IMG/VR virus record: IMGVR_UViG_3300020416_001284
Location: 1 to 64,000 of that record
Reading direction: 5' to 3' (one strand)
Length of the DNA stretch: 64,000 nt
Source of the DNA: a virus
Within the stretch, counting starts at the first letter, position 1, and each line of letters begins with the position of its first letter. The notes beneath the pieces were generated by a model, which did not search any database, had not been told where the DNA came from, and saw only the letters and a list, made by a program, of their open reading frames with translations. A program made the position numbers and the translations under genes. Positions 7,807 to 24,084 of the stretch are shown here, one piece after another.

Positions 7807-9792
7807 TTATGGTTCTGCAATTTTAAGGGGGAATATACTCTGCCCATTACCAGGCCCTGCACCACAATATCCTATAAGTGGTGAATAATTACCAGGCACT
7901 TGAGTTGGTGAAGAAAGATCTACATTATTATTTCGTCCTAATTTTCCATATTTATTTCTTCCCCATACCCATAATGTATTATCAGTTTTAGTAGCAGCCG
8001 TCATGTTGTACCCACCTTGAACTGTTCTCCAAGTGGTACCAGGTATTTGTACCAACGCATTACTAGTAGGAGTAGTGCCATTATTTCCAATTTCACCATA
8101 AGCATTTACTCCCCAACACCACAGAGTTCCATCAGTACCAATAGCAGCTCCACCCCCAGATTCACGAGCAGTTACTCCTTGATTTACTTGTGACCAAGAA
8201 CCAGGCCCTCCCGTAACTTGTCTGGGAGATTTTGTAGGACCACCCATCGGTTGAGGTAATTGCTCACTATATTGACTTTCTCCCCATCCCCATAATGTTC
8301 CATCAAGTTTTACTGCATAACCCTGAGCCCATCCAGCAGTTATACTTGACCAGTTAGTACCAGGTAATTGAACTGGTGATGATCGATTTGCATTATTATT
8401 ATCTCCTAAAATTCCCCATCCATAATTTCCACCCCATGTCCACATGGTTCCATCTTGTTTAATGGCAAAAACTCCTGTTCCCACAGGATGCAGATGTTTT
8501 GGATCACTCGACCAGTTAAGACTGTTTCCTACTTGAGTCGGTGATGATACACCTACATTTGTGGTATCTGGATATCCTTGATTAAGTCCCAGTTGTCCAT
8601 AATTAGCACTTCCCCATGTCCATAATGATCCATCTGTTTTTACTGCTGCACTCAATCTACCACCTTTTCCAATATTTGTCCAATTAGTACCAGGTATTTG
8701 AGTCGGTGATGATATTTTAAGATTATTACTTTGATTAAGTCCCAATTGTCCCTGATCATTATCTCCCCATACCCATAGTGTTCCATCAGTTTTGGTGGCC
8801 ATTTGCCACTCCATATTTGTTCCACCCCGTCCATTACCAATATCATACCAATCCACCGCAGTTCCTAGTTGAGTGGGTGATGAAAGTGCTACTTCATTAT
8901 TAAATCCTAATTGACCTGCCGCACTTCTTCCCATTGCAAATAAATTTTTAGTTGTAGGATTATAACGCACTACCTCTTTTGCTTGCCATGATACACCTTC
9001 ATCCCTTGTAACTAATTCAAATACTTGTGCTTCTGCTGATCTAATATTAGTTAACAATGTAGGAGCAGTTCCCCCACTCCAACCAATACCTGTTGGCCAT
9101 GTTATAGTTCTATCAGTGGTAGTATCATCCTTTGTTCTTATAATATAATAAATTCCATTTTCCGTATTTGCAAATGATACTGTGGTATCAGCACTTTGAG
9201 TCATATAAATGAGATTACCACTACTCAAATCAATAGCAGTCGTTCCACTATTAGCAGTCACTGCTTGTTGTGATACTGGTCCAGAAGATACTCCATCTAA
9301 ATTACTACCATCCCCATACCAAGTTGTCGCAGTCATAACTCCAGCACTTATTTGTGAAGTTCCTGCACCTGGCCATCCACCATTATAACTAACTCCCAAT
9401 CCACCAGCATGACCTGAAACATTACCAGTTATATTTCCTGTGACTGGTCCTTCAAATCCAGTAGCAGTTACCACTCCCACAGTAATTGCAGGTTGAGATG
9501 TTAAATCAGTAACTGAACCAGTTAAATTTCCAGAGAATGAAGTTGCAGTGACTACACCTACACTTATATTAGGACCAGAATCAGCAAGTCTTTGTATATT
9601 TCCTGTGAGATTACCAACAAACGAACTAGCAGTTACAACACCAGCACTTACACTACTTCCTTGTTTAATACTTGTTGCAGAACCAGCAATATTACCCTCA
9701 AAACTAGTAGCAGTTATGACACCAGTAGCCGTAACTCCTGGAACTGTCATATTTCCAAGTGGTGCTATTAATTGGGCCTTTTCCTGACTCAT
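7807..9792 (-). CDS. Long RCC1-propeller tail fibre (661 aa)
   Basis: The N-terminal 170 residues are beta-solenoid-like repeats of the pattern GVVTATSFxGNxTG, starting MSQEKAQLIAPLG. This opening is shared with the proteins at 9812 and 12766, so it is probably a common attachment end. A linker domain follows (about 170-300, with TITWPTGIGWSGG). The C-terminal half (about 285-640) is seven RCC1 blades (KTDGTLWVWGDNDQGQLG type). It is a predicted tail fibre with a propeller tip. The promoter-like TAAATAACTAAAAAA leader upstream of the next gene suggests late expression. Confidence 0.85.
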   Translation of the reverse strand: MSQEKAQLIAPLGNMTVPGVTATGVITATSFEGNIAGSATSIKQGSSVSAGVVTASSFVGNLTGNIQRLADSGPNISVGVVTATSFSGNLTGSVTDLTSQPAITVGVVTATGFEGPVTGNITGNVSGHAGGLGVSYNGGWPGAGTSQISAGVMTATTWYGDGSNLDGVSSGPVSQQAVTANSGTTAIDLSSGNLIYMTQSADTTVSFANTENGIYYIIRTKDDTTTDRTITWPTGIGWSGGTAPTLLTNIRSAEAQVFELVTRDEGVSWQAKEVVRYNPTTKNLFAMGRSAAGQLGFNNEVALSSPTQLGTAVDWYDIGNGRGGTNMEWQMATKTDGTLWVWGDNDQGQLGLNQSNNLKISSPTQIPGTNWTNIGKGGRLSAAVKTDGSLWTWGSANYGQLGLNQGYPDTTNVGVSSPTQVGNSLNWSSDPKHLHPVGTGVFAIKQDGTMWTWGGNYGWGILGDNNNANRSSPVQLPGTNWSSITAGWAQGYAVKLDGTLWGWGESQYSEQLPQPMGGPTKSPRQVTGGPGSWSQVNQGVTARESGGGAAIGTDGTLWCWGVNAYGEIGNNGTTPTSNALVQIPGTTWRTVQGGYNMTAATKTDNTLWVWGRNKYGKLGRNNNVDLSSPTQVPGNYSPLIGYCGAGPGNGQSIFPLKIAEP

Positions 9793-9808: not shown

Positions 9809-9816
9809 TATTTAGG
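9809..9816 (-). promoter_or_regulatory. Late-promoter-like box (CCTAAATA)
   Basis: A degenerate late box is followed by CTAAAAAA and then the ATG at 9792 after 16 bases. The extended sequence TAAATAACTAAAAAA also occurs before the genes at 12733 and 63971. Confidence 0.5.
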
Positions 9817-12733
9817 TGGATTTAAGAGCAAAAGTTGCCACACCATTTAAGTTAACAGAGTGCCATGTACCTGGTATTTGTGTTGGCGATGAAAGTTTTA
9901 CATTGTCAGCAGTTTGATTAAGTCCTAATACTCCAGTTTGATTTATCCCCCATGCCCACATTGTCCCATCAGTTTTAAGTCCCATAGCAGAACCATTATC
10001 ACCCGTCATACATTTTTTCCATGTAGTACCAGGAATTTGAGTTGGTGATGAATATCCATCATTATTATTATTTTGTCCAGCAGTTCCATTATCATTATTT
10101 CCCCAAGCCCATAATGTTCCATCAGTTTTGGTTACAACTGTACATAACCAACCTCCATAGGGTGTAACTTCATTCCAGTTAGTACCAGGAATTTGTCTTG
10201 GTGATGAATATTGTGTTGTATCATTTTGCCCTAGTCCTCCCTCTGCATTACTTCCCCATGCCCATAATGTTCCATCAGTCTTGGTTGCCATCATAACTCC
10301 ACCATAATAGTGTTGTGCTACTGATCTCCAATTAGTATTAGTACCTACTTGTTTTGGTGATGAATATTCTGTTTTATTATTGTGTCCTAATGTTCCATAT
10401 TCATTATAACCCCATGACCATAATGTTCCGTCAGTTTTAATTGCACCACAAGAGACAACTCCTGCAGTTAATTGGTATTCTCCAGTAGCCCATGTAGTAT
10501 TAGTTCCTACTTGAGTGGGTGATGAATAACCTCCACTTGATTGATTTTGTCCTAATACTCCACCAAAATTATACCCCCATGACCATAATGTTCCATCAGT
10601 TTTAGTTGCTAGACTGGACTGAGATCCGTGATTAACTGTTTTCCATGTAGTGCCAGGTACTTGAATGGGTGATGAACGATTATTTCCTGGTCCTGTATTA
10701 TTACCTAATTTTCCTTGAGCACTACTTCCCCACATCCATAATGTTCCATCGGATTTTAGTACGGAGTGATGACCACCATTACCAACTGAAGTGGTTAATC
10801 TACTCCATGTAGTACCAGGAATTTGAGTTGGTGATGAAACATTAGAATTTGATGGAGTATTAAGTCCCAAGTTTCCTGATTGATTTATCCCCCATACAAA
10901 TAGTGACCAATTCTTAGCCTCATTATTATAAGGTTCCCATCCATACCAAGTAACTCCACTATCCCTTGTGAGAAGTTGGAATTGTTGAGCAGCAGTTGCC
11001 GTATCACTAGTAAATAAAGTAGGAGCAACCCCACTACCATTCCATCTAACACCTGAAGGCCAAGTTATAGTTCCCTGTGTAGGATAAGTTCCTGAGCGAG
11101 CAATTGTCTGAGCACCAGCAGTAGGAGAAGATTCTGCAGTAATAGACCCAGTAGGAATAACAGTAGCTGCAGTAGCATCAGTGGTTGATTGAAGTGCTAA
11201 AAATACTGTGCCAGATATATTTGTAAGAGCACTGGATGGTGGTACAAAAGCACCTGTATAAACTGCGTTTCCTTTATTTACACGATAATTACTTAATATA
11301 CCATTAAAAAATGGAGCTCCACTATTATATGTTCCTCTTCTTCCAATATAAACAGTATTAGTATTATCCCAATTACGATTAGCAACCCCAGTTGCATCTA
11401 ATTTTCCATCTATGTATAATTTTGTTTGATCACCCGATGCACCCCTACACAAAGCTACATGATGCCATGCATTATCATCTACAGCAGTAGAACCTTCTGT
11501 AACAACATCATTACCATCTACCTGTTCATTCCAATCTATCACTCCACTTGCCACTTTCATTCTCAATCCAGAGTCCTGTACAGAAGATCTATTAAAGAAT
11601 GTCCAACCTGCATTAGAAGTTGATGTCTTCATCCAAAATTCAACTGTCCAAGCACCAGTTCCCCATTGCCAATCACTATCAGTAGCCATACTCAATCCAT
11701 CATCAGTTCCATCAAAAGTTACTCCACCAGTACTATATGATATATTATAATTACCACCCCCACCTGGTCTAATAAGAGTGATATCCATTGCCTCAGAGGT
11801 ATTTGCAAAAGATACTGTGGTAGATGTCTCCTGATCTATGGTGATTATATTACCAGCACTCAAGTCAATCGTTGTAGTGCTACTGTTTATAGTAACAGTT
11901 TGAGTATTGAAATTAGTTGCTGCAATACCTGTTAAATTACTACCATCACCATAAAGACTGGTAGCAGTAACCACTCCCACATGAATATTAGTTCCTTGTA
12001 CTACAGTTCCAGCTATACCAGTAGCACTTCCCGTTACATCACCAGTAACTGCACCCTGCAATTTATTAGTAATATTAATACTATTACCCATTCCACCATG
12101 ATTACTACAATAATAATAAAGAGGAGTGGGAGCATTTCTTGCTACTACTATCCTCGTATATGCACCCGCAGTTCCCTGAGTTCCATTTACAGTCACTCCA
12201 TCAGTATACTCCGTACTTCCTGCAGCATCAGCAGCAGTAGCAAGTCTTAAAGGGTGAGTCCCATTAGTTGAATCTGCCTGATCAAATGTATAAGTCGCAC
12301 CAGGATAAAGAGTAATAACGGGAGCCTCTACTCCATCAAGATAAAAAGCATTACCTCCACCAGTTTTTGAACCCACAGTAACTGTGTAAGTAACATTAGC
12401 AGCAGTGGAAGTTACTGCTCCTGCTTCAAATCCAGTACCTCTAGCCATACTGGTAGCAGTTCCTGTGAAATCTCCTACAAAACTACTAGCAGTCAATTGA
12501 CCAACTTTAATAGCAGATGAAGTTATAATTCCTGTTGCATTTCCTGTGAAATCTCCCGCAAAACTAGTAGCATTAAAAGCACCTAGATTTAAATTAGTTC
12601 CCTGTATAATACTCGTTGCACTTCCAACTATATCACCATCAAACGTCGCCGCAGTCATCACTCCAGATACTACAACCCCTGAAGCAGTTACTACTCCAAT
12701 AGGTTGTATTAATTGTGCCTTAGTCTGACTCAT
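9812..12733 (-). CDS. Multidomain RCC1 tail fibre with cupredoxin-like and LamG-like domains (973 aa)
   Basis: Domain order: the shared N-terminal attachment and solenoid repeats (1-110); a cupredoxin-like segment (about 115-222) with a His in GTHPLRL and a Cys-x2-His-x2-Met set in YYYCSNHGGMG; more solenoid repeats ending YGDGSNLTGIA; a LamG/concanavalin-like jelly roll (about 360-510, WTVEFWMK ... WHHVALCR ... LYIDGKLDATG); a linker with TITWPSGVRWNG; and seven RCC1 blades to the C-terminus. Cys-x2-His-x2-Met is what type-1 copper sites use, but copper binding here is inference. The LamG domain points to glycan recognition. Predicted receptor-binding fibre. Confidence 0.85.
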   Translation of the reverse strand: MSQTKAQLIQPIGVVTASGVVVSGVMTAATFDGDIVGSATSIIQGTNLNLGAFNATSFAGDFTGNATGIITSSAIKVGQLTASSFVGDFTGTATSMARGTGFEAGAVTSTAANVTYTVTVGSKTGGGNAFYLDGVEAPVITLYPGATYTFDQADSTNGTHPLRLATAADAAGSTEYTDGVTVNGTQGTAGAYTRIVVARNAPTPLYYYCSNHGGMGNSINITNKLQGAVTGDVTGSATGIAGTVVQGTNIHVGVVTATSLYGDGSNLTGIAATNFNTQTVTINSSTTTIDLSAGNIITIDQETSTTVSFANTSEAMDITLIRPGGGGNYNISYSTGGVTFDGTDDGLSMATDSDWQWGTGAWTVEFWMKTSTSNAGWTFFNRSSVQDSGLRMKVASGVIDWNEQVDGNDVVTEGSTAVDDNAWHHVALCRGASGDQTKLYIDGKLDATGVANRNWDNTNTVYIGRRGTYNSGAPFFNGILSNYRVNKGNAVYTGAFVPPSSALTNISGTVFLALQSTTDATAATVIPTGSITAESSPTAGAQTIARSGTYPTQGTITWPSGVRWNGSGVAPTLFTSDTATAAQQFQLLTRDSGVTWYGWEPYNNEAKNWSLFVWGINQSGNLGLNTPSNSNVSSPTQIPGTTWSRLTTSVGNGGHHSVLKSDGTLWMWGSSAQGKLGNNTGPGNNRSSPIQVPGTTWKTVNHGSQSSLATKTDGTLWSWGYNFGGVLGQNQSSGGYSSPTQVGTNTTWATGEYQLTAGVVSCGAIKTDGTLWSWGYNEYGTLGHNNKTEYSSPKQVGTNTNWRSVAQHYYGGVMMATKTDGTLWAWGSNAEGGLGQNDTTQYSSPRQIPGTNWNEVTPYGGWLCTVVTKTDGTLWAWGNNDNGTAGQNNNNDGYSSPTQIPGTTWKKCMTGDNGSAMGLKTDGTMWAWGINQTGVLGLNQTADNVKLSSPTQIPGTWHSVNLNGVATFALKST

Positions 12734-12765: not shown

Positions 12766-15348
12766 TCATGAAGATAATTTGAATGCCATTCCAAATCCAG
12801 CACCACCAGAAGCCTCCATCCAATCAGTACCAGGAATTTGAGTTGGAGATGAACGTTGTGTTAGATCATTGAGTCCTAATGATCCATACGTTCCACTATT
12901 GGTATTATCTCCCCATGTCCATAATGTACCATCAGTTTTGGTTGCTTGTGATTGAAATTCTGCAGCAACTGCTTGACTCCAGGTAGTACCAGGTATTTGA
13001 ACTGGTGATGAATATAATATTGCAGTATTCAATCCTAAGTTTCCACGCGTACCATCTCCCCATGCCCATGCTGTTCCATCAGTTTTGGTTGCCACCACGT
13101 AAGGTTGTGTTCCAATAGAGATATTCTTCCAAGTGGTTCCAGGTACTTGTCTTGGGGATGAATAATTGGTTCTATTATTTTGTCCTGTTGCTCCATCATG
13201 TCCTCTTCCCCACATCCATAATGTTCCATTCGTTTTAATTGCTGCACTAACATCCCTACCACAAACGGGATCCGACCAATCACTACCAGTTCCTATTTGA
13301 CATGGTGATGACTTTCTATTAGCACCTGATGATTCATTAAGTCCTAAGGATCCATCCCCATTACCTCCCCATGTCCACAAGGTTCCATCAGTCTTAGTAG
13401 CCATTGTTTGCCTATATCCACAAGTAACTTTAGACCAGTTAACACCAGGTATTTGTGTTGGCGATGATTTTTTCGTGTCGCCTGATCCTGGCCAAGAAGC
13501 TGTTTCATTAAGTCCCAATTCTCCTCCTAGATTACGTCCCCATGACCATAATGTTCCATCAGTCTTGATTGCTAAATGAAATGCATCATCCCCTGCTGAA
13601 TGACTCCACGTGGTATCTGCTCCTATTTGAGCTGGTGATGAATATCCATCATTAACATCATTTTGTCCTAATTCTCCACCCTCATTATGTCCCCATGCCC
13701 ATAATGTTCCATCCGTTTTAACTGATATCCAAGAGTTAGAAGTGTCTGCACCCGCACTACCTTCTAAAGGCATTTGATTCCAAGTAGTACCAGGTATTTG
13801 AGTAGGTGATGACCGACTTGTTAAATTATTTTGTGCTAATTGTCCATAATTATTATATCCCCATGCCCATAAAGTGTAAGGACCGCCTGTAGGATTGTCT
13901 TTCATCTCCTCCCATGCCTGATAAGATGCTCCCGTGTCACCAGTCGTCAAATGAAAGATTTGGAATGCAGCGGATCTTCGATTATTAATAAGTGTAGGAG
14001 TTAGATTATCTTTCCACTTAACAGTAGAGGGCCATGTTATACTATAAGTAATTGCAGTTGTTCCTGAGGCGGTAACAGTTTGAGCACCAGCAGTAGGAGA
14101 ACTAGTTGCATTGAGAGTATTACCGACTGCTGCTGCCGTATCATCAGTAGTTGATTGACAACATAATAGTTTAGTATTGGTTACATTCGTAAGGGCTGAT
14201 GATGGAGGTGTAAAATTCTTTGTATAAAGTGCTGTTCCTACTACTAAACGAAGATTAGATATAACTCCATTCGTATACTCAGAATTTTCTCCTACAAGAT
14301 TTCCAATACTTGCTGTAGTTGGACTATAATCATATGAATCACTAAAACTAGCTCGAGCAATTCCATTTATGTATCCAGTGGTAACTCCACCAGTTCTTAC
14401 AAAAGCCCAATGATACCATACACCTGTTGTTATTGCTCCTACAACTTCTATTGCTCTTCCACCAGCATTAGAAGTGAAGAAAACAAAATCACCACTAGCA
14501 TCAGTTCCTACGTTAAAACCACTACCTCTAGTAGTAGCAAAGTGCGTTTGCCAATTAGTTAAAGTATCCTGTTTTACCCAATACTCAAGAGTAAAATCAC
14601 TCGTACCTGGAGCCGTGATTAAGGTAGTGTCTAATCTATCATCCGATCCATCAAAATCTACACCACCAGTGGAAAGACTTATATTCCAAGCTTCTGCAGA
14701 AGAAGTATCAGGATTTCTGATGATTGTTAGTTGTTCTGCAGGAGAAGTGCTGGCAAATCCAACAGTAGTCTCAGCTCCATCAACACTTTGAGTCAAATAA
14801 ATCAGATTTCCATATGATAAATCAATTATAGTTTCATCACCACTTGCAGTAACTTCTTGAGCAATGTATGCACTCGATCCTGCTCCTGTTAAATTAGCCC
14901 CATTACCATGATATTGAATAGCAGTACATACACCAACATTTAAATTGACACCAGGCGTAACACTTGCTGCTAATCCAGTTATATTTCCCGTTACATCTCC
15001 CGTCACATTTCCCGCAAAACTCGTAGCAGTTACAAGACCTACATTTAGATTTGGTGTTCCTGTTAATCCTGCTGCCTTACCTACTGCATCTCCTATAAAA
15101 CTTGTTGCTGTTGTAAGACCTAAATTTAAATTTGGTGTTCCTGTTAAGTTTGCAGCATGTCCTGTTCCATCTCCTACAAAACTTGTGGCAGTAACTACTC
15201 CAACATTTAAATTAGGACTACCAGTTAACCCAGTTACTACTCCACCCTCGCCACTAAAAGAACTTGCAGTTATAACGCCCGTAGCATTCATGCCAGGCAA
15301 ATTCATATTTTCCTGAGGATCAACTAATTGGGCCTTTGGTTCAGACAT
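12766..15348 (-). CDS. RCC1 tail fibre with LamG-like domain (860 aa)
   Basis: It starts MSEPKAQLVDPQENM, the shared attachment end, followed by four solenoid repeats (NLNVGVVTATSFVGDGTG type, about 20-155). A LamG-like domain at about 235-395 contains DFTLEYWVKQD, WYHWAFVRTGG and GYINGIARASF. A short TITWP linker and seven RCC1 blades (about 480-860) follow. It is paralogous to 9812 but lacks the cupredoxin-like insert. It is transcribed from a perfect TATAAATA late box (15385-15392). The promoter region is shared head to head with the hldD-like gene. Confidence 0.85.
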   Translation of the reverse strand: MSEPKAQLVDPQENMNLPGMNATGVITASSFSGEGGVVTGLTGSPNLNVGVVTATSFVGDGTGHAANLTGTPNLNLGLTTATSFIGDAVGKAAGLTGTPNLNVGLVTATSFAGNVTGDVTGNITGLAASVTPGVNLNVGVCTAIQYHGNGANLTGAGSSAYIAQEVTASGDETIIDLSYGNLIYLTQSVDGAETTVGFASTSPAEQLTIIRNPDTSSAEAWNISLSTGGVDFDGSDDRLDTTLITAPGTSDFTLEYWVKQDTLTNWQTHFATTRGSGFNVGTDASGDFVFFTSNAGGRAIEVVGAITTGVWYHWAFVRTGGVTTGYINGIARASFSDSYDYSPTTASIGNLVGENSEYTNGVISNLRLVVGTALYTKNFTPPSSALTNVTNTKLLCCQSTTDDTAAAVGNTLNATSSPTAGAQTVTASGTTAITYSITWPSTVKWKDNLTPTLINNRRSAAFQIFHLTTGDTGASYQAWEEMKDNPTGGPYTLWAWGYNNYGQLAQNNLTSRSSPTQIPGTTWNQMPLEGSAGADTSNSWISVKTDGTLWAWGHNEGGELGQNDVNDGYSSPAQIGADTTWSHSAGDDAFHLAIKTDGTLWSWGRNLGGELGLNETASWPGSGDTKKSSPTQIPGVNWSKVTCGYRQTMATKTDGTLWTWGGNGDGSLGLNESSGANRKSSPCQIGTGSDWSDPVCGRDVSAAIKTNGTLWMWGRGHDGATGQNNRTNYSSPRQVPGTTWKNISIGTQPYVVATKTDGTAWAWGDGTRGNLGLNTAILYSSPVQIPGTTWSQAVAAEFQSQATKTDGTLWTWGDNTNSGTYGSLGLNDLTQRSSPTQIPGTDWMEASGGAGFGMAFKLSS

Positions 15349-15370: not shown

Positions 15371-15399
15371 TTGCTTTTCCTATTTATTTATACTATAAT
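15371..15399 (+). promoter_or_regulatory. Sigma70-type promoter of the hldD-like gene
   Basis: TTGCTT (15371-15376), a 17-base spacer and a perfect TATAAT (15394-15399) lie on the plus strand. The predicted start near 15406 leaves only about 7 bases before the ATG at 15413, so the message would be nearly leaderless. Confidence 0.7.
15385..15392 (-). promoter_or_regulatory. T4-type late promoter (TATAAATA)
   Basis: A perfect TATAAATA on the minus strand, upstream of the RCC1 fibre starting at 15348. It lies inside the spacer of the opposing sigma70-type promoter. Confidence 0.75.
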
Positions 15400-15412: not shown

Positions 15413-16192
15413 ATGATCATAATTACTGGACATGAAGGATTTATTGGAAAGAAATTTCTAGAAAAACTAAAAGATAAAGAGATTGTCACAGTTGAAAAAA
15501 GGAACAGTTGGCACTTTCGTAGTTTTAATGAGTGGCACAAGATAGAACTCATACTACATCAGGGTGCTATCTCTGATACTACATGCACTAATCTAAAAGC
15601 AATCAATCACTTTAATGTAGAGTTTACTCAGTGGTTATTCGAGCAAGCAATCAGATATCAAATACCAATGAAGTATGCATCCTCTGCATCTGTCTATGGT
15701 AATACATCTGATACAATCAATCCTCTTAACTACTATGCAATATCCAAAGTCATCTCAGACTATTGGGTTCAAGACCACATGGATGAGTTTAAATTAATAC
15801 AAGGATTTAGATACTTTAATGTCTATGGAGAAGGTGAAGAACATAAGGAAGACCAAGCAAGCCCAGTATCCAAATTCACTAAGCAAGTTAAAGATGTAGG
15901 AGCTCTCAAACTATTTGAAGGGTCTGATAAGTTCCTTAGAGACTTTATATGTGTAGATGATGTTGTGGATATTGTATTGAATAACGATAAACCATCTGGT
16001 ATCTATGATTTAGGTACAAGCAATCCAACTAGTTTTCAAGAAGTAGGAGAACTAGTAGCAGAAAAATATAATGGTATCATAAAATATATCCCATTCCCCG
16101 AACACTTAAAGGGTAAGTATCAAACCTACACTTGTGCTAAAAAGGAATGGGATTATAAGTTTACTACTATTAAAGAGTATCTCCAGGTATAA
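15413..16192 (+). CDS. hldD: ADP-L-glycero-D-manno-heptose 6-epimerase (HldD-like)
   Basis: A 259-residue extended short-chain dehydrogenase that should convert ADP-D-glycero-manno-heptose to the L-glycero form. It has the NAD(P)-binding GHEGFIG (6-12) and the HldD signature HQGAISDTT (49-57, like HEGACSSTTE). The catalytic Y108-x3-K112 is in YYAISK. The family-typical C-terminal series is also present: FRYFNVYGEGEEHK, KLFEGSDKFLRDF, and YIPFPEHLKGKYQ. It is about 50 residues shorter than cellular HldD. The upstream ATG at 15371 is rejected because it lies inside the promoter. It is the only plus-strand gene between 0 and 63 kb, and its end overlaps the cupin gene tail to tail by 23 bases. 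Confidence 0.88.
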   Translation: MIIITGHEGFIGKKFLEKLKDKEIVTVEKRNSWHFRSFNEWHKIELILHQGAISDTTCTNLKAINHFNVEFTQWLFEQAIRYQIPMKYASSASVYGNTSDTINPLNYYAISKVISDYWVQDHMDEFKLIQGFRYFNVYGEGEEHKEDQASPVSKFTKQVKDVGALKLFEGSDKFLRDFICVDDVVDIVLNNDKPSGIYDLGTSNPTSFQEVGELVAEKYNGIIKYIPFPEHLKGKYQTYTCAKKEWDYKFTTIKEYLQV

Positions 16193-16532
16193 CCCTGTGA
16201 GAATCTTCATCAAAATGCTGAGTAGAGAACTCAAATAGTTCTGCGTCTTCTATTGCTACCATCTGATGCCTTGTATATCTACAACAATGAAAACTATCAC
16301 CAGGTTCTAGGATCATTGTCTTTGCATCTTCTAAGTTATCTGTCGGGCCATAAAACAAATGGATCTTCCCTGATTGTAAGTAGAAGGTCTCATCTTTTAA
16401 TATATGATAGTGCCATGAACACCTATGGTTTCTCTTAATAAACAATAACTTACCACAATACTCTGATGAGTTGGCAATCCATTTCTCCCAACCCCATCCT
16501 TTAGGTACAAATTTTGGTTTAGTTTCTCTCAT
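16170..16532 (-). CDS. Cupin-domain protein
   Basis: A 120-residue single cupin. The first motif is in CSWHYHILKDETFYLQSG (about 38-55, His-x-His and Glu) and the second is in LEPGDSFHCCRYTRHQM (about 75-92), giving the usual metal ligands. The pattern resembles the small mannose-6-phosphate isomerase or sugar-binding cupins found in surface-polysaccharide clusters. The substrate cannot be read from sequence. Its start overlaps the HAD gene stop by four bases, and it is the last gene of the decoration operon. Confidence 0.75.
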   Translation of the reverse strand: MRETKPKFVPKGWGWEKWIANSSEYCGKLLFIKRNHRCSWHYHILKDETFYLQSGKIHLFYGPTDNLEDAKTMILEPGDSFHCCRYTRHQMVAIEDAELFEFSTQHFDEDSHRVIPGDTL

Positions 16533-16879
16533 CGTTTATCATTAAAGAATACTTTATCAGGCCATGCCTTATCATCTATGAAGTAATCTGCATGTGGTTT
16601 ACCCATAATCAACTCATGATACTTACATCCCCAATCGTTCAATTGTTTCTCTGTAAGTTCAAATAAAACCTCTTTTGCTTTTATTGCAGCATCAAAATGA
16701 GTTTGATCGGAAAACCTACCCATTGCTCGTGCAGTGAAGTAGATAATATAATTACCCTCATCATAAAGTTTATTTAGTACCTTGATCCTCTGTTTCCAAG
16801 GTTCTGCTTTATGGTAATCTCTACCCACTGTGGGAGTACAAATAGTACCATCAATATCAACACAGTATCTTTTTGACAT
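16529..16879 (-). CDS. HAD-family phosphatase of sugar cluster
   Basis: A 116-residue HAD hydrolase with catalytic D8-x-D10-G-T (VDIDGTICTP). The second motif is in YFTARAMG (about 47-54), and the acidic motif IV is in DYFIDDKAW (about 98-106). It belongs to the small 'capsular biosynthesis' HAD group rather than the GmhB family proper. Placed beside the heptose kinase and nucleotidyltransferase, it is the obvious candidate for the heptose-bisphosphate phosphatase step, but that is inference from context. The start overlaps the kinase gene by 23 bases. Confidence 0.75.
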   Translation of the reverse strand: MSKRYCVDIDGTICTPTVGRDYHKAEPWKQRIKVLNKLYDEGNYIIYFTARAMGRFSDQTHFDAAIKAKEVLFELTEKQLNDWGCKYHELIMGKPHADYFIDDKAWPDKVFFNDKR

Positions 16880-17597
16880 CTTCCTCCGTTAGTACATAAG
16901 TTCCTCGATGTGACACAGCCACTGCTGCTGCTTTATTGGCAAGAGGTATTGCTTCCTCCATCCTACCATACTTTAAATATCCATAGGTAAGTGCAGCAAG
17001 GAATGTATCCCCTGCACCTACTACATCAAATACATTTACCTTCTCTGCTGGATATAAATCACCTTTATACTCTGCTCCCTCACCACCTCTAGTTATAATT
17101 AAATTTTCATAATTATAATATGACATTCTTTCATACTCAAGTTCATTAACTTTAATATATGCATCAGCAGGTAAATTAGTTTTCTTACTATCAATAAAAA
17201 CTGGTCCCTCAAACCACTCCACCAACTCAAACATTTTCTCTTGGGTTATAAATCCTTTATCATAATCAGATATAACAAGTGCATCATAGGTAGATTTCCA
17301 CTCATCTGGAAACTCAAATGAAATAGGGGTTATCTCTGGTTCTTCATCGGAACGGAAGATCTGTTGATTAGACTTCTCATCTATAAATCTTGTCTTAATG
17401 ATCTTCTCTGGATGAGTAGAAGTATAAGTTTCCACTCTAAATGACATAAGATTCTCTCTTACATTCCATACCATCCCCTTACTTGTCACTCCTCTCTTAT
17501 ATTGTAAGATAGGAACAGGAGCCTCTGGACTCAACCTCTTAGCATCTCCATAGAAATACCTGTCTTCACAACTATCTCCAATTAATAATACTTTCAT
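16857..17597 (-). CDS. Heptose 7-phosphate kinase-like (PfkB family, HldE domain I)
   Basis: A 246-residue PfkB/ribokinase-family protein. Its N-terminus, GDSCEDRYFYGDAKRLSPEA, matches the HldE kinase signature (GD..LDRY.YG....SPEAPVPV). The catalytic base is D197 in VGAGDTFLA (193-201). It is about 70 residues shorter than the usual HldE kinase domain. The conserved GGAANV substrate or lid motif reads GMVWNV (41-46). It should phosphorylate D-glycero-D-manno-heptose 7-phosphate at C1 if active. It overlaps the nucleotidyltransferase gene by 4 bases. In many bacteria the two activities are fused as HldE; here they are split. Confidence 0.8.
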   Translation of the reverse strand: MKVLLIGDSCEDRYFYGDAKRLSPEAPVPILQYKRGVTSKGMVWNVRENLMSFRVETYTSTHPEKIIKTRFIDEKSNQQIFRSDEEPEITPISFEFPDEWKSTYDALVISDYDKGFITQEKMFELVEWFEGPVFIDSKKTNLPADAYIKVNELEYERMSYYNYENLIITRGGEGAEYKGDLYPAEKVNVFDVVGAGDTFLAALTYGYLKYGRMEEAIPLANKAAAVAVSHRGTYVLTEEDVKKILC

Positions 17598-17995
17598 AGA
17601 TTTTTAATCTTACTAATAGTACTGCTGCTGGCATAACCACCAACTCTTGGAAGAAATCTTACTTCCTTGGCAAACTCTGCTCCTACTACCTCACCGTCTC
17701 TCCAATCATCACCAAGTAATAGTATATCAGGACTATACATTTCTACCAAGTCCTCTAACTCTTGTCTCGTATCAAATGTCAACACAGTATCAATATACTT
17801 AATTGCTTCTAACATTGCAACCCTATATCCAGCACTATGAACTGGTTTACCACCACCCTTATCTTCACTGATCTTCTCATCAGTATCAGTGGCTACAATA
17901 ACCTTCTCTCCTAGTGATCTTGCAACCTTGAATAATTGCACATGACCTGGATGAAGAATGTCAAAAGTTCCATTTACGAATACAGTTTTACACAC
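17594..17995 (-). CDS. rfaE2: Heptose 1-phosphate adenylyltransferase-like (HldE domain II)
   Basis: A 133-residue cytidylyltransferase-fold protein with VNGTFDILHPGH at 7-18 (the HxGH nucleotide-binding site). The C-terminal signature GYASSSTISKI is the counterpart of the STT-I motif in RfaE domain II. It would join AMP to heptose 1-phosphate to give ADP-heptose. A glycerol-3-phosphate cytidylyltransferase is the alternative, but the directly adjacent HldE-type kinase and the nearby hldD-like gene favour the heptose role. It overlaps the upstream oxygenase gene by 8 bases. Confidence 0.82.
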   Translation of the reverse strand: MCKTVFVNGTFDILHPGHVQLFKVARSLGEKVIVATDTDEKISEDKGGGKPVHSAGYRVAMLEAIKYIDTVLTFDTRQELEDLVEMYSPDILLLGDDWRDGEVVGAEFAKEVRFLPRVGGYASSSTISKIKNL

Positions 17996-18749
17996 GATAA
18001 ACCTCGTCTACAGTTACCATACTTGCTCTTTTGTTAATGATTCTATTCACTTCAGGATCATCTTTCTGTTCCTCAGTAGGTATATATATTGCCTTTGAAT
18101 TAACAGGACAATTCTCTACTGGATCAGTAAGATAATATACTGCTATACTCTTTCTATAACGCCCCTCAGGACACTCCAAAGGGGTAGGAAGTCCATGATA
18201 TGAGTTTTGGGTAGTATCGAACATTACTGCACGATTAAAGAGTGTATCAGTGGAAGTTATACATTGTTTTCTATCTGATGACCAAAACTCTAATTGGCCT
18301 TTCCACTCAGGATTCCAGTTCTCAGCAAGATAAACAATAAGATTTAACTTCCGTTGGAGTTTCAGTTTAGGATGAATAGAATAGTCAAGATGTATGTTTA
18401 GTTTACCACCTTTTCCATGCATATGCAACCCTCCACCATGTAAACCCACATCAGGGTACAACTTCTTGATACCCGTAATCTTCTGTAGTTTAGAAATAAA
18501 GGAAGGGGAATTCAAGTAACAAAATGTAGAGTATAAGTTCCTTGGAAACAAATTCCATGTATTACAAGCCTTCTTATTCTCTAAGGGATTATTATATACA
18601 TACCAGACATCAGAATTGTAATCAGGAAACTCCCGACTTAATGACATCGCAGTCTCATCATCAAAGAAGTTATCTATTACTACATGATTAAATGGTTGTC
18701 CTTTGATGAACTCAGATTTTAATTTAGAAACTTCAAGTCGATTGATCAT
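17988..18749 (-). CDS. 2OG-Fe(II) oxygenase
   Basis: A 253-residue double-stranded beta-helix oxygenase. Iron ligands H120-x-D122 (NIHLDYSIHP) and H185 (NSYHGLP), and a 2-oxoglutarate-binding R199 (YRKSIAVYY), are in the right order and spacing for the prolyl-4-hydroxylase-like group. Such enzymes hydroxylate proteins, sugars or small molecules; the substrate here is unknown. It is part of the sugar operon, with a 4-base overlap with the gene upstream. Confidence 0.8.
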   Translation of the reverse strand: MINRLEVSKLKSEFIKGQPFNHVVIDNFFDDETAMSLSREFPDYNSDVWYVYNNPLENKKACNTWNLFPRNLYSTFCYLNSPSFISKLQKITGIKKLYPDVGLHGGGLHMHGKGGKLNIHLDYSIHPKLKLQRKLNLIVYLAENWNPEWKGQLEFWSSDRKQCITSTDTLFNRAVMFDTTQNSYHGLPTPLECPEGRYRKSIAVYYLTDPVENCPVNSKAIYIPTEEQKDDPEVNRIINKRASMVTVDEVYRV

Positions 18750-19378
18750 ATATAATTGTCTTCTGTAAAGATTGTATCATACATATTCATCTCCTTATGA
18801 ACATGGTGCAGGTCACAAGGATCAAATCTATCCCCCGTACCAATCATCAACTCTCTATCAATTTTACCATGTTCTCCCTCAGTATACAAGAAGTTCTCAT
18901 CTAATGTAGCAAGATAATTTGAATTGGCCCACCAGAAATTACCACTATAATGTGGGTATGGTTTCATTCTTAACTTAACTCCCACTGAATCATACTCCTC
19001 TAATTTATCAATACACTCTCTCCATTTATCAATCACATAATATTCTAAAAATAATCTCCATGCATGTAGTTGAGGAACAAACTGTCTACTTGCTCCCTTT
19101 GCATGAAAGAATAATACTTTATAATCTGGATTCTCCTTAGAGAACTTATACATTGATTCAACAGTCTCACCCTCATCCTTAGTCAATCGTTTATTGTACT
19201 GAACTCTTGCCTTCTCTGGTAATGAAAACATCTCTGCTTCTCCCACAATACCAATATGAATAAACTCACAAGAATCCATTAATCCAGATGTGTGTAATCT
19301 ATGCATCTGTTGTTGATATATCAAACCAGATAATTCAGTCTGATATAGGTGGTAAAAAATTGCTAATTTTTGTAACAT
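18746..19378 (-). CDS. Glycosyltransferase-like protein
   Basis: About 210 residues from the ATG at 19378; an earlier ATG at 19399 is possible but deeper inside the upstream gene. It has features of a group of surface-sugar transferase-like proteins in phages and bacteria: VLFFHAKGASR near the middle, WRLFLEYYVIDKW, and the HYSGNFWWANSNYL motif near residue 145. No DxD metal motif is obvious. Assignment as a glycosyltransferase rests on the HYSGNFWWA pattern and on operon context. Confidence 0.6.
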   Translation of the reverse strand: MLQKLAIFYHLYQTELSGLIYQQQMHRLHTSGLMDSCEFIHIGIVGEAEMFSLPEKARVQYNKRLTKDEGETVESMYKFSKENPDYKVLFFHAKGASRQFVPQLHAWRLFLEYYVIDKWRECIDKLEEYDSVGVKLRMKPYPHYSGNFWWANSNYLATLDENFLYTEGEHGKIDRELMIGTGDRFDPCDLHHVHKEMNMYDTIFTEDNYI

Positions 19379-19772
19379 AATGTTTGTAGAACTCTTCAAA
19401 TTCAGATGATCCGTAAAAATATCGTTTCCCCTCCCTCATATATATGAACGGCACATTAAACTTTCCTAACTCTGCTAATATCTCATCTGTGATTTCCTTT
19501 CCTGCATTCACAACTTCTAACCATTTACCATAAGGCCAATCCTTTACACTCACCATTATACCAATATCTTTAGGAAACATCCACTCTGGTAAAACTCCTT
19601 GGGCCCAGAAACATTGATACCTTTTACACTGAGAAGGTCTATTAGGATGTATTGAGCATCCATTTTTAATAAACCTACAAGGATTACCTGGTGTTATATG
19701 TTGCCCATATACTTCATGATTGAGATACCTACAACATAAATCACATTCACCACATTCTCTAACCTGCTCCAT
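19335..19772 (-). CDS. YkgJ-like Cys-rich metal-binding protein
   Basis: A 145-residue protein with an N-terminal cluster of eight cysteines (CGECDLCC at 7-14, then Cys at about 32, 38, 49 and 54) matching the YkgJ / zinc- or iron-chelating domain family. Members occur near oxygenase and sugar genes, but the reaction is unknown; a metal or Fe-S cluster is expected. Its neighbours are a 2OG-Fe(II) oxygenase-like gene and a transferase, overlapping by 14 and about 44 bases. Confidence 0.7.
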   Translation of the reverse strand: MEQVRECGECDLCCRYLNHEVYGQHITPGNPCRFIKNGCSIHPNRPSQCKRYQCFWAQGVLPEWMFPKDIGIMVSVKDWPYGKWLEVVNAGKEITDEILAELGKFNVPFIYMREGKRYFYGSSEFEEFYKHYVTKISNFLPPISD

Positions 19773-20370
19773 GAAAGAAAAAGAGTTGAACTAATCTACA
19801 GTTATCATATGTAGTTCCAAACCAATCCCCATTTGAGTGCCATAAGAAAGGATTAAACATCACCAAACGATTATATTTAAATCCAATATTGTCCGTACAT
19901 ATCCACTTAGATTCATCCTTTCCTTCCGTATCAAAAAATTTTACCATATCATCATGAGAATTTATACCATACTTAGCAGCTTCTTCCATATTAGGAGCTG
20001 TCTCCCATCCAATTTCTTTGTGCTTCCAGAACTTAGTTCCTGCTGTGGGATGAAAAATAGGAGTTAAATAAAGAACTCCTGCCCATACTAATCCTGGATT
20101 TGGATCAAAATGTATATGCTGAGAACCATACTGTCCTTCTTTGGTTATTCTAAAATAAGAACACTTATTCTCTGGTTTTGTGACAAGTTGTTCTCCTACT
20201 ACTGCGGAACATGCCTCTGTCATCTCCTCCTCACCATGACTATCACTACTATCCCTTCCAGGCCAATTCTTACCACCCAATCTTTGATACTGTTGTTCTA
20301 ATGCATATGCACGAACAGCATCAGGATTATCTAAGAAACCATCAACAATAATTAAATTTCTACGTCTCAT
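19759..20370 (-). CDS. DUF6445-like 2OG-Fe(II) oxygenase
   Basis: A 203-residue protein opening with the family-typical NLIIVDGFLDNPDAVRAYAL. The putative iron ligands are H87-x-D89 (HIHFDPNPG) and H178 (FLWHSNG), with R192 for 2-oxoglutarate. This layout fits the DUF6445 group, whose members have the oxygenase fold but an unproved substrate. It is coupled to the GT9-like gene upstream by a 4-base overlap. Confidence 0.7.
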   Translation of the reverse strand: MRRRNLIIVDGFLDNPDAVRAYALEQQYQRLGGKNWPGRDSSDSHGEEEMTEACSAVVGEQLVTKPENKCSYFRITKEGQYGSQHIHFDPNPGLVWAGVLYLTPIFHPTAGTKFWKHKEIGWETAPNMEEAAKYGINSHDDMVKFFDTEGKDESKWICTDNIGFKYNRLVMFNPFLWHSNGDWFGTTYDNCRLVQLFFFHGAG

Positions 20371-21257
20371 AGTATTCTTAATAAATCGTGTTTAACATCT
20401 TCAAAGGGTTGATTCCAATCTCCTTGAACTGACTGTGTATATATTCTCATTTTATCACCAAACCAGAAGTCTTGCAACCACAAATAATAAGGATCTTTTG
20501 GAACCACTGTCCATATAGGTGTATTTAATCCTGCACATACAATAGGAATACATGTAGAACTACTAATGGTCAAGTCTAGTCTAGAGATGGCTGCAAATGT
20601 ATCATCCCATGTTTCAAACCATGATCTCTTGTGTTCATGAAGAGGAATAACATTAGAGGGTATATCATCTATTCCATCATCCTTATGTAAAGAATACAAC
20701 TCAACATTTGGAAGAGATCCTAACTCTTCAAAATACTGAGCAGGGATAATTGTATCTTTTTCAAATGTAGTATTGCCTGTCCATCTAACACCTATTTTAA
20801 ATTTATCGCTGGGCGGTATGATCCTTTTCCATTTAGTGAGGTATTCCTCAGTAGGTTCAAGATAAGGTTCAATGGGAACTTGATCCTGAGTCACACCCAA
20901 TGCAACAGGAACTTCACCCACAGGAACCCAGTAATCATAATCCTCAAAATCTTCTACCTCAGTAATATGTATTACTTTATCAATACTTTTTATTCTTGCG
21001 ATAACAGTATAAGATGACCAATAGTTAGTTGCAAAAACCACTCTCATTCCTCTCTCTACAAAATTATGAGAGAACTTTGCCCCAAATAATTCATCACCTA
21101 TTCCAGCTTCACCAGTGATTAATATAGTCTTACCTGTTTCAAATCTTGCATTCCATATGGGTTTTTTATGTTTATAAGAATATGCTCCCCACCGACTAGT
21201 CAACCTCTCAGTGTGCATCTTCACTAAGAGTTCTCTAAATTCTATAGGGTTGCCCAT
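20367..21257 (-). CDS. GT9/heptosyltransferase-like glycosyltransferase
   Basis: A 296-residue GT-B type protein. The N-terminal half has a Rossmann start (TILITGEAGIGDELFGAKF, about 49-67), like the GDxL donor of heptosyltransferases. The C-terminal half has KIGVRWTGNTTFEKD (about 153-167) and DLTISSSTCIPIVCAGLNTP (about 231-250), the counterpart of the family's D-x-x-I-S-x-D-T-x-x-x-H-L-A-G-A nucleotide-sugar motif. The usual Asp/His of that motif are changed. A heptose donor is suggested by the operon but not shown by sequence. Confidence 0.68.
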   Translation of the reverse strand: MGNPIEFRELLVKMHTERLTSRWGAYSYKHKKPIWNARFETGKTILITGEAGIGDELFGAKFSHNFVERGMRVVFATNYWSSYTVIARIKSIDKVIHITEVEDFEDYDYWVPVGEVPVALGVTQDQVPIEPYLEPTEEYLTKWKRIIPPSDKFKIGVRWTGNTTFEKDTIIPAQYFEELGSLPNVELYSLHKDDGIDDIPSNVIPLHEHKRSWFETWDDTFAAISRLDLTISSSTCIPIVCAGLNTPIWTVVPKDPYYLWLQDFWFGDKMRIYTQSVQGDWNQPFEDVKHDLLRIL

Positions 21258-21910: not shown

Positions 21911-22866
21911 TATAAAGTAATCTCCTCCATTTTTAAGTTAAGATCTGAGTTCTCAGGTAATGAATAAGGTGTTTTATTATCTTCCCATAATTGCATAGCA
22001 TGTTCGGGTCTCCATGTAAAGGGAAGATCTCTTGAGACTGACATGTGCATTACATAAGGATCAAGAGGCATAAACATACTAACATGTTTTCCCCATAACT
22101 CACTAATAGTATCACCCTCCCATGAAGCTGCATCAGTTCCTGTTACTTGTAATCGATCAAAAGTTTCTTTATGTTTCTTGAATACTTTTGCCTTGAGCAT
22201 GAATGTTTCATGAGTATACCATGTTGTTCTATAATATCCTATAGGTGTAGGTACTACTGTGCAAGGTCTTACATAATAATCAAGTGTTGGGTTTGATGCA
22301 AAAGGAAACATCTGAACAAAACATTGAGGAAAGATCCCTACATCTCTATCAGTTCTTCCATCAAATTCTTTAACTTGTAAATTAGCTTCCTCATCCGATA
22401 CTCCTACTGACCATAAAGATTTTCTAAAAGTATCACGAGGACCAATTACATTTATCAAATGGTCTAGATAATACCATGCATATACCATCCTTTGAATTGC
22501 ATCAGGATAATGAAGATGATCATCATCTACAATATACACAAAGTCTTCATCAGATAAATCATAAATGTAATCATAAGCCACCTTTACAGAAAATCTTGAT
22601 TGTATATGAGGATCTTGTCCTTCTGTGTCTCTATCTCCTAAAAAATCAAAAGTAACTTTCTTCTTTGACTCTTCACATATTTTTGTAAGACTCTCTCTAA
22701 AGTATTCACTAGATCTATCATCAATAATATGATAATCTACATCCTCAATATTCTCCATGTTTTTAAGAACAGAGTTAACACAACGAAGAGCACACTCTGT
22801 CTTATTCACAATCCTCTTTGATTGGATTGAAGCCTTATCACATGTTCTAGTGATGATATGAAGCAT
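21910..22866 (-). CDS. Family-2-like glycosyltransferase
   Basis: A 318-residue GT-A protein. IITRTCDK opens the nucleotide-binding half, YHIIDDRSSEYF (45-56) matches the GT2 D-D-x-S motif, and YIVDDDHLHYPDA (111-123) carries the metal-binding D-D-D. The remainder is helical with no membrane segment, so it acts in the cytoplasm. Start and stop each share one base with the neighbours, so the operon is tight. Donor and acceptor unknown. Confidence 0.75.
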   Translation of the reverse strand: MLHIITRTCDKASIQSKRIVNKTECALRCVNSVLKNMENIEDVDYHIIDDRSSEYFRESLTKICEESKKKVTFDFLGDRDTEGQDPHIQSRFSVKVAYDYIYDLSDEDFVYIVDDDHLHYPDAIQRMVYAWYYLDHLINVIGPRDTFRKSLWSVGVSDEEANLQVKEFDGRTDRDVGIFPQCFVQMFPFASNPTLDYYVRPCTVVPTPIGYYRTTWYTHETFMLKAKVFKKHKETFDRLQVTGTDAASWEGDTISELWGKHVSMFMPLDPYVMHMSVSRDLPFTWRPEHAMQLWEDNKTPYSLPENSDLNLKMEEITL

Positions 22867-23477
22867 CAGTGTAAATTACCTGCAATGGAAATTCTATAGT
22901 CATCACTAGTCTGAAAAGGATATACAATATGTAAAAGTTTTGCAGGAAACATTACAATCCTCCCTTCCCATCCACTTTCTACAAACATCGGACAATTAGT
23001 AATATTACCAAGCACTGAAGTATAAACAAACTGAAAAGTAGATGTTAACTGCCTTGTTCTTGATTTCTTACAGTTCTCCATGTTCCTTTCATCTTCTAAT
23101 TTAAATGGAATATGCAACCATGCAACAAAACTCAAAGTACCATCATGATTATGAAGGGGATTTACCTCTAGTTTCTTTTGCATATTTACCCATACGGATT
23201 CTACTTTTAAATTTTTATTTGGATTCTCTTTGGGATAATAATCCCATTTTTTCTGATATGCTCTACCCATCTCCTCTAGATAGGGATCAAGAAATTGTCT
23301 ACTCTTGGTTATTTCATATTCTTTTGTGATCTGACCTGCAAGAGACTGATTCATTTTTACGATATCTTTATCATTAGTATGAATATCTACTATCTCTTGG
23401 TTAAGAGTCTGATATATCTCAGGAGGAATCTTACCATTAGTAAGTCCTACGTTTGGAAGATGTGCATGATCAAACAT
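22866..23477 (-). CDS. 2OG-Fe(II) oxygenase (PF13759-like)
   Basis: About 203 residues from the ATG at 23477 (MFDHAHLPNVGL). The ATG at 23534 lies far inside the upstream gene and adds an unlikely hydrophobic leader. Ligands: H109 and H111 (NPLHNHDGTLSFVAWLH), a late His in AKLLHIVYPF, and an Arg in YRISIAGNLH at the C-terminus. The NPxHxH-x6-FVAWLH layout is that of the phage-enriched '2OG-Fe(II) oxygenase family, DUF/PF13759' group. Substrate unknown. Confidence 0.75.
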   Translation of the reverse strand: MFDHAHLPNVGLTNGKIPPEIYQTLNQEIVDIHTNDKDIVKMNQSLAGQITKEYEITKSRQFLDPYLEEMGRAYQKKWDYYPKENPNKNLKVESVWVNMQKKLEVNPLHNHDGTLSFVAWLHIPFKLEDERNMENCKKSRTRQLTSTFQFVYTSVLGNITNCPMFVESGWEGRIVMFPAKLLHIVYPFQTSDDYRISIAGNLH

Positions 23478-24084
23478 TATTTTCTTTCTCCACAGGATTA
23501 TATACCAAAGGATTATATATTTCTCCTTTATCAATATTCATAGAAATACACATTCTCCTTCCTTTTGTAGGGGGAACTTCATGGTGTAACATGGCTGGCC
23601 ATAGGGCAAGCATACCATTTTGGGGTTGAAGTGTCAATGGTTGATTGTTATTATTTACTCCATCGTTCAATACACTTTCAAAAATAACAGGAGCACAACC
23701 AGGTTCTACATCCACATAATAACAACATGCAAAATCAGTTGGAAAATGTGAATGTCTCTTTGTCCATTCAGTATCTTCATACATCATAGCCCACAAATTG
23801 GTAGCCTTAAACTCAATATCATCACACTCATAATATCCTGCACAAATAAACTTACATGCATCTAGAACTCTATCAACTATAAGTTTGAACTTTGGATTCT
23901 CTTGGTGAGTTACCCATGAACTGTGCCATGCCTTTACATTACTCTTAGTGGTCTCTGGAAATTTCTGTCGGTGTTCCAGTATCACCTGCTTTAGATACTT
24001 ATTCATCTCTACATGATCCTCCAGAATGGTAGTAAAAACTGCCATTGGTTTAGAAACATGTTGTATCTCAAATCGACTACTCAT
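23470..24084 (-). CDS. 2OG-Fe(II) oxygenase
   Basis: A 204-residue protein of the same fold as its downstream neighbour but a different branch: TKRHSHFPTDFACCYYVDV (about 108-126) supplies the first His pair. AMLHHEVPPTKGRRMCISMNI near the C-terminus supplies the distal His and the 2-oxoglutarate-binding Arg. The conserved ...LALWPAMLHHEV is typical. It overlaps both neighbours (4 and 8 bases). Confidence 0.75.
   Translation of the reverse strand: MSSRFEIQHVSKPMAVFTTILEDHVEMNKYLKQVILEHRQKFPETTKSNVKAWHSSWVTHQENPKFKLIVDRVLDACKFICAGYYECDDIEFKATNLWAMMYEDTEWTKRHSHFPTDFACCYYVDVEPGCAPVIFESVLNDGVNNNNQPLTLQPQNGMLALWPAMLHHEVPPTKGRRMCISMNIDKGEIYNPLVYNPVEKENNV

Follow-up and report, generated by a model that had tools for sequence, protein, structure and literature searches.

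Can a cyanophage make an activated heptose on its own, and if so, which enzyme carries out the first step, the one that GmhA performs in bacteria? The question is raised by one locus of the IMG/VR virus record IMGVR_UViG_3300020416_001284, of which positions 1 to 64,000, hereafter the window, were analyzed; the window is part of a 70,795-base record that is itself a fragment. In bacteria, adenosine diphosphate (ADP)-heptose is made by the GmhA-HldE-GmhB-HldD pathway, and GmhA is regarded as the gateway to manno-heptose synthesis. A preliminary description of the locus had proposed a near-complete ADP-heptose pathway in which only GmhA was not seen. The present analysis suggests that the cyanophage probably carries the complete pathway from sedoheptulose 7-phosphate to ADP-heptose, or to another nucleoside diphosphate (NDP)-heptose. 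The step of GmhA is probably not missing, because a cupin that had been overlooked is the likely isomerase.

The five-gene module

Judging from gene content and near relatives, the virus of the window appears to belong to the T4-like cyanophages, and the closest matches of the region come from phages of Prochlorococcus and Synechococcus as well as from marine single-cell viruses. An epimerase gene on the plus strand converges tail to tail with a minus-strand array of phosphatase, kinase, and nucleotidyltransferase genes, the three of which overlap one another (nucleotidyltransferase and kinase by 4 bp, kinase and phosphatase by 23 bp); the open reading frames (ORFs) bear out the preliminary description in both respects. 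Its gene list was incomplete, since a fifth ORF, encoding the cupin, lies within the same interval, sharing 4 bp with the phosphatase gene and 23 bp with the end of the epimerase gene. The module is composed of the following genes:

15413-16192, plus strand: HldD-like ADP-glyceromanno-heptose 6-epimerase of the short-chain dehydrogenase/reductase (SDR) type, 259 residues, ATG at 15413, matching TIGR02197
16170-16532, minus strand: cupin, 120 residues, proposed from conserved residues, fold, fusions, and GmhA exclusion to be a sedoheptulose-7-phosphate isomerase in place of GmhA
16529-16879, minus strand: small cap-less HAD phosphatase, 116 residues, proposed heptose-1,7-bisphosphate 7-phosphatase, with HAD motifs and a match to the EcbF/BcbF subfamily
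16857-17597, minus strand: RfaE1/HldA-like kinase, matching TIGR02198 and, as a PDB profile, HldA 4e84, with a GAGD motif
17594-17995, minus strand: RfaE2/HldC-like, putative heptose-1-phosphate nucleotidyltransferase, 133 residues, matching TIGR02199, with an HxGH motif

The same five genes occur in the same order in the phages P-SSM2 (PSSM2_309-313, T4-GC 304-308), S-CAM3, and S-CAM1, whereas S-SSM7 and Sf-FS3 keep the order with insertions, and the genes are reshuffled in P-TIM68 and S-SM2. Between the window and its relatives, the ratios of nonsynonymous to synonymous substitution rates (dN/dS) range from 0.03 to 0.25 (19 pairwise comparisons, 3 or 4 relatives per gene), indicating purifying selection. 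Given this selection and the recurrence of the order in P-SSM2, S-CAM3, S-SSM7, and others, the cluster is not a product of chance. Module genes are carried by hundreds of viral loci. In P-TIM68 (L005) and S-SM2 (L006), the clusters are extended by transketolase-like and alcohol dehydrogenase genes around the heptose genes, and that of S-SM2 additionally contains a class II aldolase gene and a second HAD gene. Phage-type modules, with cupins 65-67% identical, were also met in three contigs of metagenome-assembled genomes (MAGs) labeled Planctomycetaceae TMED10 or Euryarchaeota TMED129 (L189, L190, and L191), which are probably of phage origin and were sorted into bacterial or archaeal bins.

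Search for GmhA and linkage of the cupin to heptose genes

No match to GmhA (TIGR00441) was found in the 70,795-base record, itself incomplete. At E ≤ 1, PF13580 matched none of 16 and none of 7 records, and SIS_2/PF13580 was not found in nine isolates that carry the module (P-SSM2, S-CAM3, S-SSM7, P-TIM68, S-SM2, S-CAM1, S-T4, Sf-CH8, and Sf-FS3). Among further records searched at E ≤ 0.01, a GmhA-type match was present in 1 of 40 and 0 of 27, the single one being partial and below threshold. The lone weak match (G020) is a 207-residue SIS protein that scores 18.3 bits, or 31 bits with a small custom GmhA profile, and by eye it appears to be another kind of SIS isomerase. In control genomes, the same search does pick up proteins of the GmhA type, and the GmhA of Caulobacter phage Cr30 is recovered by tblastn. 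A GmhA hidden in the phage is rejected for the sequence analyzed, as both the record-wide and the nine-isolate searches were negative. The preliminary observation on GmhA therefore stands for the record and the nine isolates, but the step itself is probably filled by the cupin.

Viral loci selected by the kinase comprise 84 distinct kinases, 56 of which have at least 3 kb of sequence on either side. In these 56 well-flanked loci, the nucleotidyltransferase is present in 56, the cupin in 55, the HAD in 44, a strong HldD in 41, and GmhA in none; the cupin thus accompanies the kinase more often than HldD or HAD does. Conversely, no cupin is found in 49 viral loci selected by GmhA. When loci with both kinase and nucleotidyltransferase are counted by distinct kinases, with cupin-selected loci included, 120 have only the cupin, 2 only GmhA, 1 both, and 9 neither. 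Moreover, three viral loci (L157, L158, and L159) encode the cupin and the nucleotidyltransferase as a single fused protein.

The linkage extends to cells. A genome scan gave 80 loci of cupin relatives, and heptose genes surround some of them. Fused open frames occur in two Woesearchaeota genomes: one of 444 residues in L250 combines an HldA kinase with the cupin, and one of 504 residues in L258 combines a GmhB-like HAD with the cupin and an HldC-like nucleotidyltransferase. No match to GmhA at 1e-3 was found in either genome. Across 279 genomes sampled from the archaeal phylum to which these two belong, the cupin occurs in 35, GmhA in 74, and the kinase in 76. Kinase-cupin fusions are present in 7 of the 279 (in one of them, a contig end truncates the fusion), and the GmhB-cupin-nucleotidyltransferase fusion in 1. 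Kinase-GmhA fusions were confirmed in four genomes of the same phylum, and in these the isomerase likewise occupies the C-terminal part. When the cupin is required to score at least 80 bits, 24 genomes qualify, of which 20 also have the kinase (odds ratio 17.8, p 3e-9), and the 76 kinase genomes divide into 17 with the cupin only, 42 with GmhA only, 3 with both, and 14 with neither (odds ratio 0.059, p 4e-6), the p-values being from Fisher tests that take no account of shared ancestry or of incomplete genomes. Within the kinase-bearing genomes of this phylum, cupin and GmhA are largely mutually exclusive.

Conserved residues and fold of the cupin

The motif HxHxxKxE, a later histidine (H89), and ExS (E101-x-S) are invariant over 30 aligned viral cupins, and likewise over a set of 18 viral, bacterial, and archaeal cupins. 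This signature is that of D-lyxose/D-mannose isomerases and lies in register with Bacillus subtilis D-lyxose isomerase (2y0o) in a profile alignment, in which K46, two residues ahead of the metal-binding E48 and like it invariant, aligns to the KxE of 2y0o. In the Thermofilum D-lyxose isomerase, two residues have been assigned by the authors to catalysis, E88 to proton transfer and K86 to stabilization (PMC8378251). With PDB profiles, the nearest named enzymes are L-ribose isomerase 5avp (5.4e-4) and the D-lyxose isomerases 2y0o (1.3e-3) and 7nzo (3.3e-3). The Pfam family Lyx_isomer touches 19 of 19 cupin members, the best at 3e-4; the cupin of the window scores 17.5 bits, under the cut-off of 20.8, which is passed by two cellular relatives (L209 and L244).

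The AlphaFold2 model of the cupin (predicted local distance difference test, pLDDT, 94.9) has a cupin fold with an HxHx4E + H metal site. The top five Foldseek matches are all Thermofilum D-lyxose isomerase, some with D-fructose or D-mannose bound, and Thermococcus phosphomannose isomerase is among the cupins re-aligned structurally (Z 15.0-15.1, 24% identity). Fold alone is nonetheless not decisive, because the second aligner ties many cupins. In a midpoint-rooted tree read by eye, the phage cupins fall mainly into two separate groups, each amid cellular relatives. The label 'cysteine dioxygenase' that this protein bears in PHROG 7851 and in the P-SSM2 record is unsupported, as the Foldseek list has a putative cysteine dioxygenase (4qm9) no higher than rank 33.

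The other enzymes of the module

The epimerase, kinase, and nucleotidyltransferase are best placed in the HldD, RfaE1, and RfaE2 families, respectively, as the preliminary description had proposed, and because all three score under the curated NCBIfam cut-offs, they are divergent members. The epimerase matches TIGR02197 (HldD) best, at 210.4 bits (3.4e-62) against a cut-off of 274.6, with GalE at 30 bits, and it carries SSASVYG, YAISK, and RYFNVYGEGEEHK. The loci of S-T4 and Sf-CH8 have no strong HldD match.

The kinase matches TIGR02198 (RfaE domain I) at 126 bits (cut-off 345), with ribokinase at 46. In PDB searches, for which the profiles of kinase, HAD, and nucleotidyltransferase were built from 18-20 phage relatives, HldA 4e84 comes out on top for the kinase (6.5e-27). 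The N-terminal sugar-binding motif of HldA/RfaE1 is GG(A/G)xN. The phage family shows GMxxN instead, with GG replaced by GM, and is therefore regarded as an HldA-like enzyme and not as canonical HldA. This changed motif, noticed at the outset as a possible sign of lost activity, is common to the phage family, which keeps the GAGD motif (G194-A-G-D197, invariant across 19 aligned phage kinases) and is under purifying selection.

The nucleotidyltransferase matches TIGR02199 (RfaE domain II) at 97 bits (cut-off 181.5), ahead of glycerol-3-phosphate cytidylyltransferase at 76, and HxGH is invariant in 18 aligned phage relatives. A combination of the latter family with ribokinase, the alternative raised in the preliminary description, scores lower on both counts. 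For heptose nucleotidyltransferases, a (F/L)XXGXSTT motif is named in a published summary (PMC11461863); at the C-terminus, the window has GGYASSS, and many relatives have GDYSTT with one extra residue. Because the PDB profile matches mix CTP- and ATP-using enzymes (3elb, TagD, and HldC-like), the choice of nucleotide is open.

The HAD is where the earlier assignment needs correction: the protein is not recognizably GmhB, as no GmhB/HisB-type family match was found in NCBIfam. There, it matches only the EcbF/BcbF subfamily of capsule phosphatases (31 bits against a cut-off of 162), and its best PDB profile match is a capsule biosynthesis protein (9iqw, 1.9e-19). The HAD motifs DIDGT, TAR, and GKP..IDDK are conserved, with DxD and K invariant in 20 HADs. 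The label 'phosphoheptose isomerase' (PHROG 1238, RefSeq, and the P-SSM2 record) is rejected, since by sequence the protein is a HAD hydrolase.

Proposed pathway and alternatives

The pathway would start from sedoheptulose 7-phosphate, an intermediate of the Calvin cycle and the pentose phosphate pathway, which the cupin may isomerize in place of GmhA. Its mechanism would resemble that of D-lyxose/D-mannose isomerases and phosphomannose isomerases: H41, H43, E48, and H89 would coordinate a divalent metal, and K46/E48 would handle the cis-enediol. The RfaE1-like kinase would then phosphorylate C1, the small HAD would take off the 7-phosphate, the RfaE2-like enzyme would add the nucleotide, and HldD, where present, would epimerize C6. 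Gene identity, conservation, fusions, the exclusion of GmhA, and fold are the observations from which we infer these activities.

Several observations weigh against this reading. The PDB profile E-values of the cupin are weak for isomerases (5e-4 to 4e-3), and the top match (3e-4) is an uncharacterized cupin. Structural re-alignment ties isomerases with CapF, KdgF, and others (Z 14-15.4), and cupins catalyze many different reactions. One well-flanked viral kinase locus (L174) is without the cupin, 3 of the 76 archaeal kinase genomes hold both cupin and GmhA, and so do, with a GmhA-like gene, one viral locus (L098) and one MAG (L198). A GmhA-like match above 80 bits is present in 6 of 17 cellular genomes with the cupin near or fused to hld genes. 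Furthermore, most cupin loci of Binataceae and Deltaproteobacteria have no hld genes nearby, and in the two such loci scanned, the cupin lies beside GDP-mannose 4,6-dehydratase-like genes; the cupin family may hence hold other sugar-phosphate isomerases. Finally, given the mixed matches of the nucleotidyltransferase, ADP is not established as the nucleotide. In the cupin-module loci of L098 (11269-12515) and L198 (9254-10518), the GmhA-like gene adjoins a HAD-nucleotidyltransferase fusion, and this region is perhaps a second heptose pathway, in L098 inside one virus.

If the host's GmhA performed the first step, the cupin could have another job in the pathway, such as epimerization, mutarotation, or heptose tailoring. 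The versatility of cupin folds, a fold search that does not by itself single out isomerases, and the several genomes with both proteins speak for this, but it leaves unexplained why loci that lack HldD or HAD still have the cupin, why the cupin occupies the place of GmhA in kinase fusions, and why the genomes with the L250 and L258 fusions have no GmhA match at 1e-3; we regard it as unlikely. Only a little less doubtful is the view that the module makes a different activated sugar, be it cytidine diphosphate (CDP)-heptose or a nucleotide form of another sugar, on which the HldD-like enzyme acts. The CTP users among the profile matches (3elb and TagD, besides HldC-like enzymes), the C-terminal SSS in place of STT, and the transketolase and alcohol dehydrogenase genes added in S-SM2 and P-TIM68 would fit it, whereas the family scores run the other way in every pair (RfaE2 97 over glycerol-3-phosphate cytidylyltransferase 76, RfaE1 126 over ribokinase 46, and HldD 210 over GalE 30 bits). 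That the genes are decaying passengers of host origin that make nothing is very improbable: although the scores are under curated cut-offs, the kinase is short, and its GG motif is altered, the frames are intact, dN/dS stays at 0.03-0.25 in all 19 comparisons, the catalytic motifs are invariant, and the genes recur in hundreds of viral loci.

Relation to known systems

Phage carriage of heptose genes is not new, given that P-SSM2 and other cyanophages carry the module and that working viral enzymes have been summarized. Phage records already name some module genes ADP-heptose synthase or heptose epimerase. In P-SSM2, the five genes have the order and orientations of the window, with 56-75% protein identity; the flanking genes differ, and the names given in the record are phosphoheptose isomerase for the HAD and cysteine dioxygenase for the cupin. 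As summarized, Tang et al. (Science 2024) reported working heptose enzymes in viruses that make ADP-heptose, the viral set being an isomerase, a kinase, and a nucleotidyltransferase but no phosphatase, and the available parts of the summaries mention no cupin isomerase (PMC11461863, PMC11573728). Caulobacter phage Cr30 also has heptose kinase and isomerase genes, but its isomerase is a genuine GmhA and its locus has no cupin.

Compared with the bacterial pathway, the phage module has the same kinase, nucleotidyltransferase, and epimerase families, and the same order of steps is proposed. It differs in having a cupin instead of GmhA, an EcbF/BcbF-type HAD instead of GmhB, and a kinase and nucleotidyltransferase that are unfused and short. 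The near-complete pathway envisaged earlier thus holds for these three families, but not for the HAD as GmhB, and its first step is likely supplied by the cupin. With known cupin isomerases (2y0o, 7nzo, and 3kmh; Thermococcus 7zvm and 7zvy), the phage cupin shares the fold and the HxH..KxE..H site (KxE compared for 2y0o), and the proposed reaction is of the same type, from ketose to manno/lyxo-aldose. In contrast, its proposed substrate is a C7 phosphate, it is shorter than lyxose isomerases, and it has natural fusions to heptose enzymes. What is probably new is the cupin as a candidate new type of sedoheptulose-7-phosphate isomerase; a literature search, with subscription journals mostly outside its scope, found no paper on a cupin heptose isomerase.

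If so, the existence of a second, unrelated enzyme for the GmhA step would alter the way in which genomes are scored for heptose capacity, since these phages and archaea would escape any search built on GmhA. The apparent gap in the heptose pathway of cyanophage records since P-SSM2 would be accounted for as well, and the misleading labels 'phosphoheptose isomerase' (PHROG 1238/RefSeq) and 'cysteine dioxygenase' (PHROG 7851) would be corrected.

Possible use of the sugar

Together with those of the module, the genes of the minus strand between 25627 and 16170 form a tightly packed, overlapping series, and they include GT25, GT2, sulfotransferase, and 2-oxoglutarate (2OG) oxygenase families. 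Three genes of the surroundings are listed here:

17988-18749, minus strand: 2OG-Fe(II) oxygenase adjoining the module upstream (PF13640, 6.4e-15)
20367-21257, minus strand: GT9-fold glycosyltransferase, 296 residues, candidate heptosyltransferase from an AlphaFold2 model and Foldseek
28186-29487, minus strand: protein with tetratricopeptide repeats (TPR) and a GT9-like part, 433 residues, second heptosyltransferase candidate (PF01075, E 0.22, under cut-off)

The model of the 20367-21257 protein (pLDDT 81.9) matches GT9 enzymes/heptosyltransferases at all Foldseek ranks from 1 to 29 (3tov, WaaF, TibC, and WaaC; best E 3.2e-8, TM ~0.57), and its sequence has no match to the Pfam GT9 family (Glyco_transf_9). 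The 28186-29487 protein scores 11.3 bits with this family against a cut-off of 22 and is ~21-24% similar to the 20367-21257 family by tblastn; sequence-profile searches of the GT9 candidates against PDB gave no matches. The sugar is probably used by the GT9-fold enzyme, which lies in the same array, and it might be placed on neighboring RCC1-repeat tail fibers or, equally open, on the host surface.

According to a review, the lipopolysaccharides (LPS) of Synechococcus WH8102 and CC9311 contain neither heptose nor 3-deoxy-D-manno-octulosonic acid (KDO) (PMC4515613). Sf-CH8 and Sf-FS3, both listed on host WH8102, carry the module. The earlier suggestion that heptose would be a foreign sugar in such a host is in keeping with both points, but Sf-CH8 is without a strong HldD. 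Only tentatively do we extend the proposal to the broadest form: the cupin family would be an unrecognized second kind of sedoheptulose-7-phosphate isomerase, substituted for GmhA on repeated occasions in both phages and archaea, and cyanophages would draw with it on a Calvin-cycle intermediate, build ADP-heptose in hosts with heptose-free LPS, and attach it, through their own GT9 enzyme, to RCC1-repeat tail fibers or to the infected cell, a combination we think possible but doubtful. If true, it becomes testable which sugar phages add to themselves or to cells with heptose-free LPS.

The glycan genes are bordered by seven ORFs whose products contain RCC1-like repeats (KTDGTLWxWG), at 4720-5985, 7807-9792, 9812-12733, 12766-15348, 25648-26883, 30687-31910, and 32644-33855. 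From their sequences, they appear to be a paralogous family of putative fiber proteins, and a domain scan of 12766-15348 gave RCC1 and Laminin_G_3. Within the glycan array, 2OG-Fe(II) oxygenases are encoded at 17988-18749, 22866-23534, and 23470-24084, and the PHROG label 'DNA endonuclease V' on one of them looks like a mislabel. A cysteine-rich ORF of 145 residues at 19335-19772 (CGECDLCC...) has no Pfam match and belongs to PHROG 9155. Matches to ATAAATA, which resembles T4 late promoters, number 17 overall, below the shuffle mean of 30; on the minus strand (e.g., 15381-15391 and 25645-25651), 10 of 14 sit 14-37 bp upstream of minus-strand ORF starts. The one at 25645 could give rise to one transcript running from 25627 down to the cupin.

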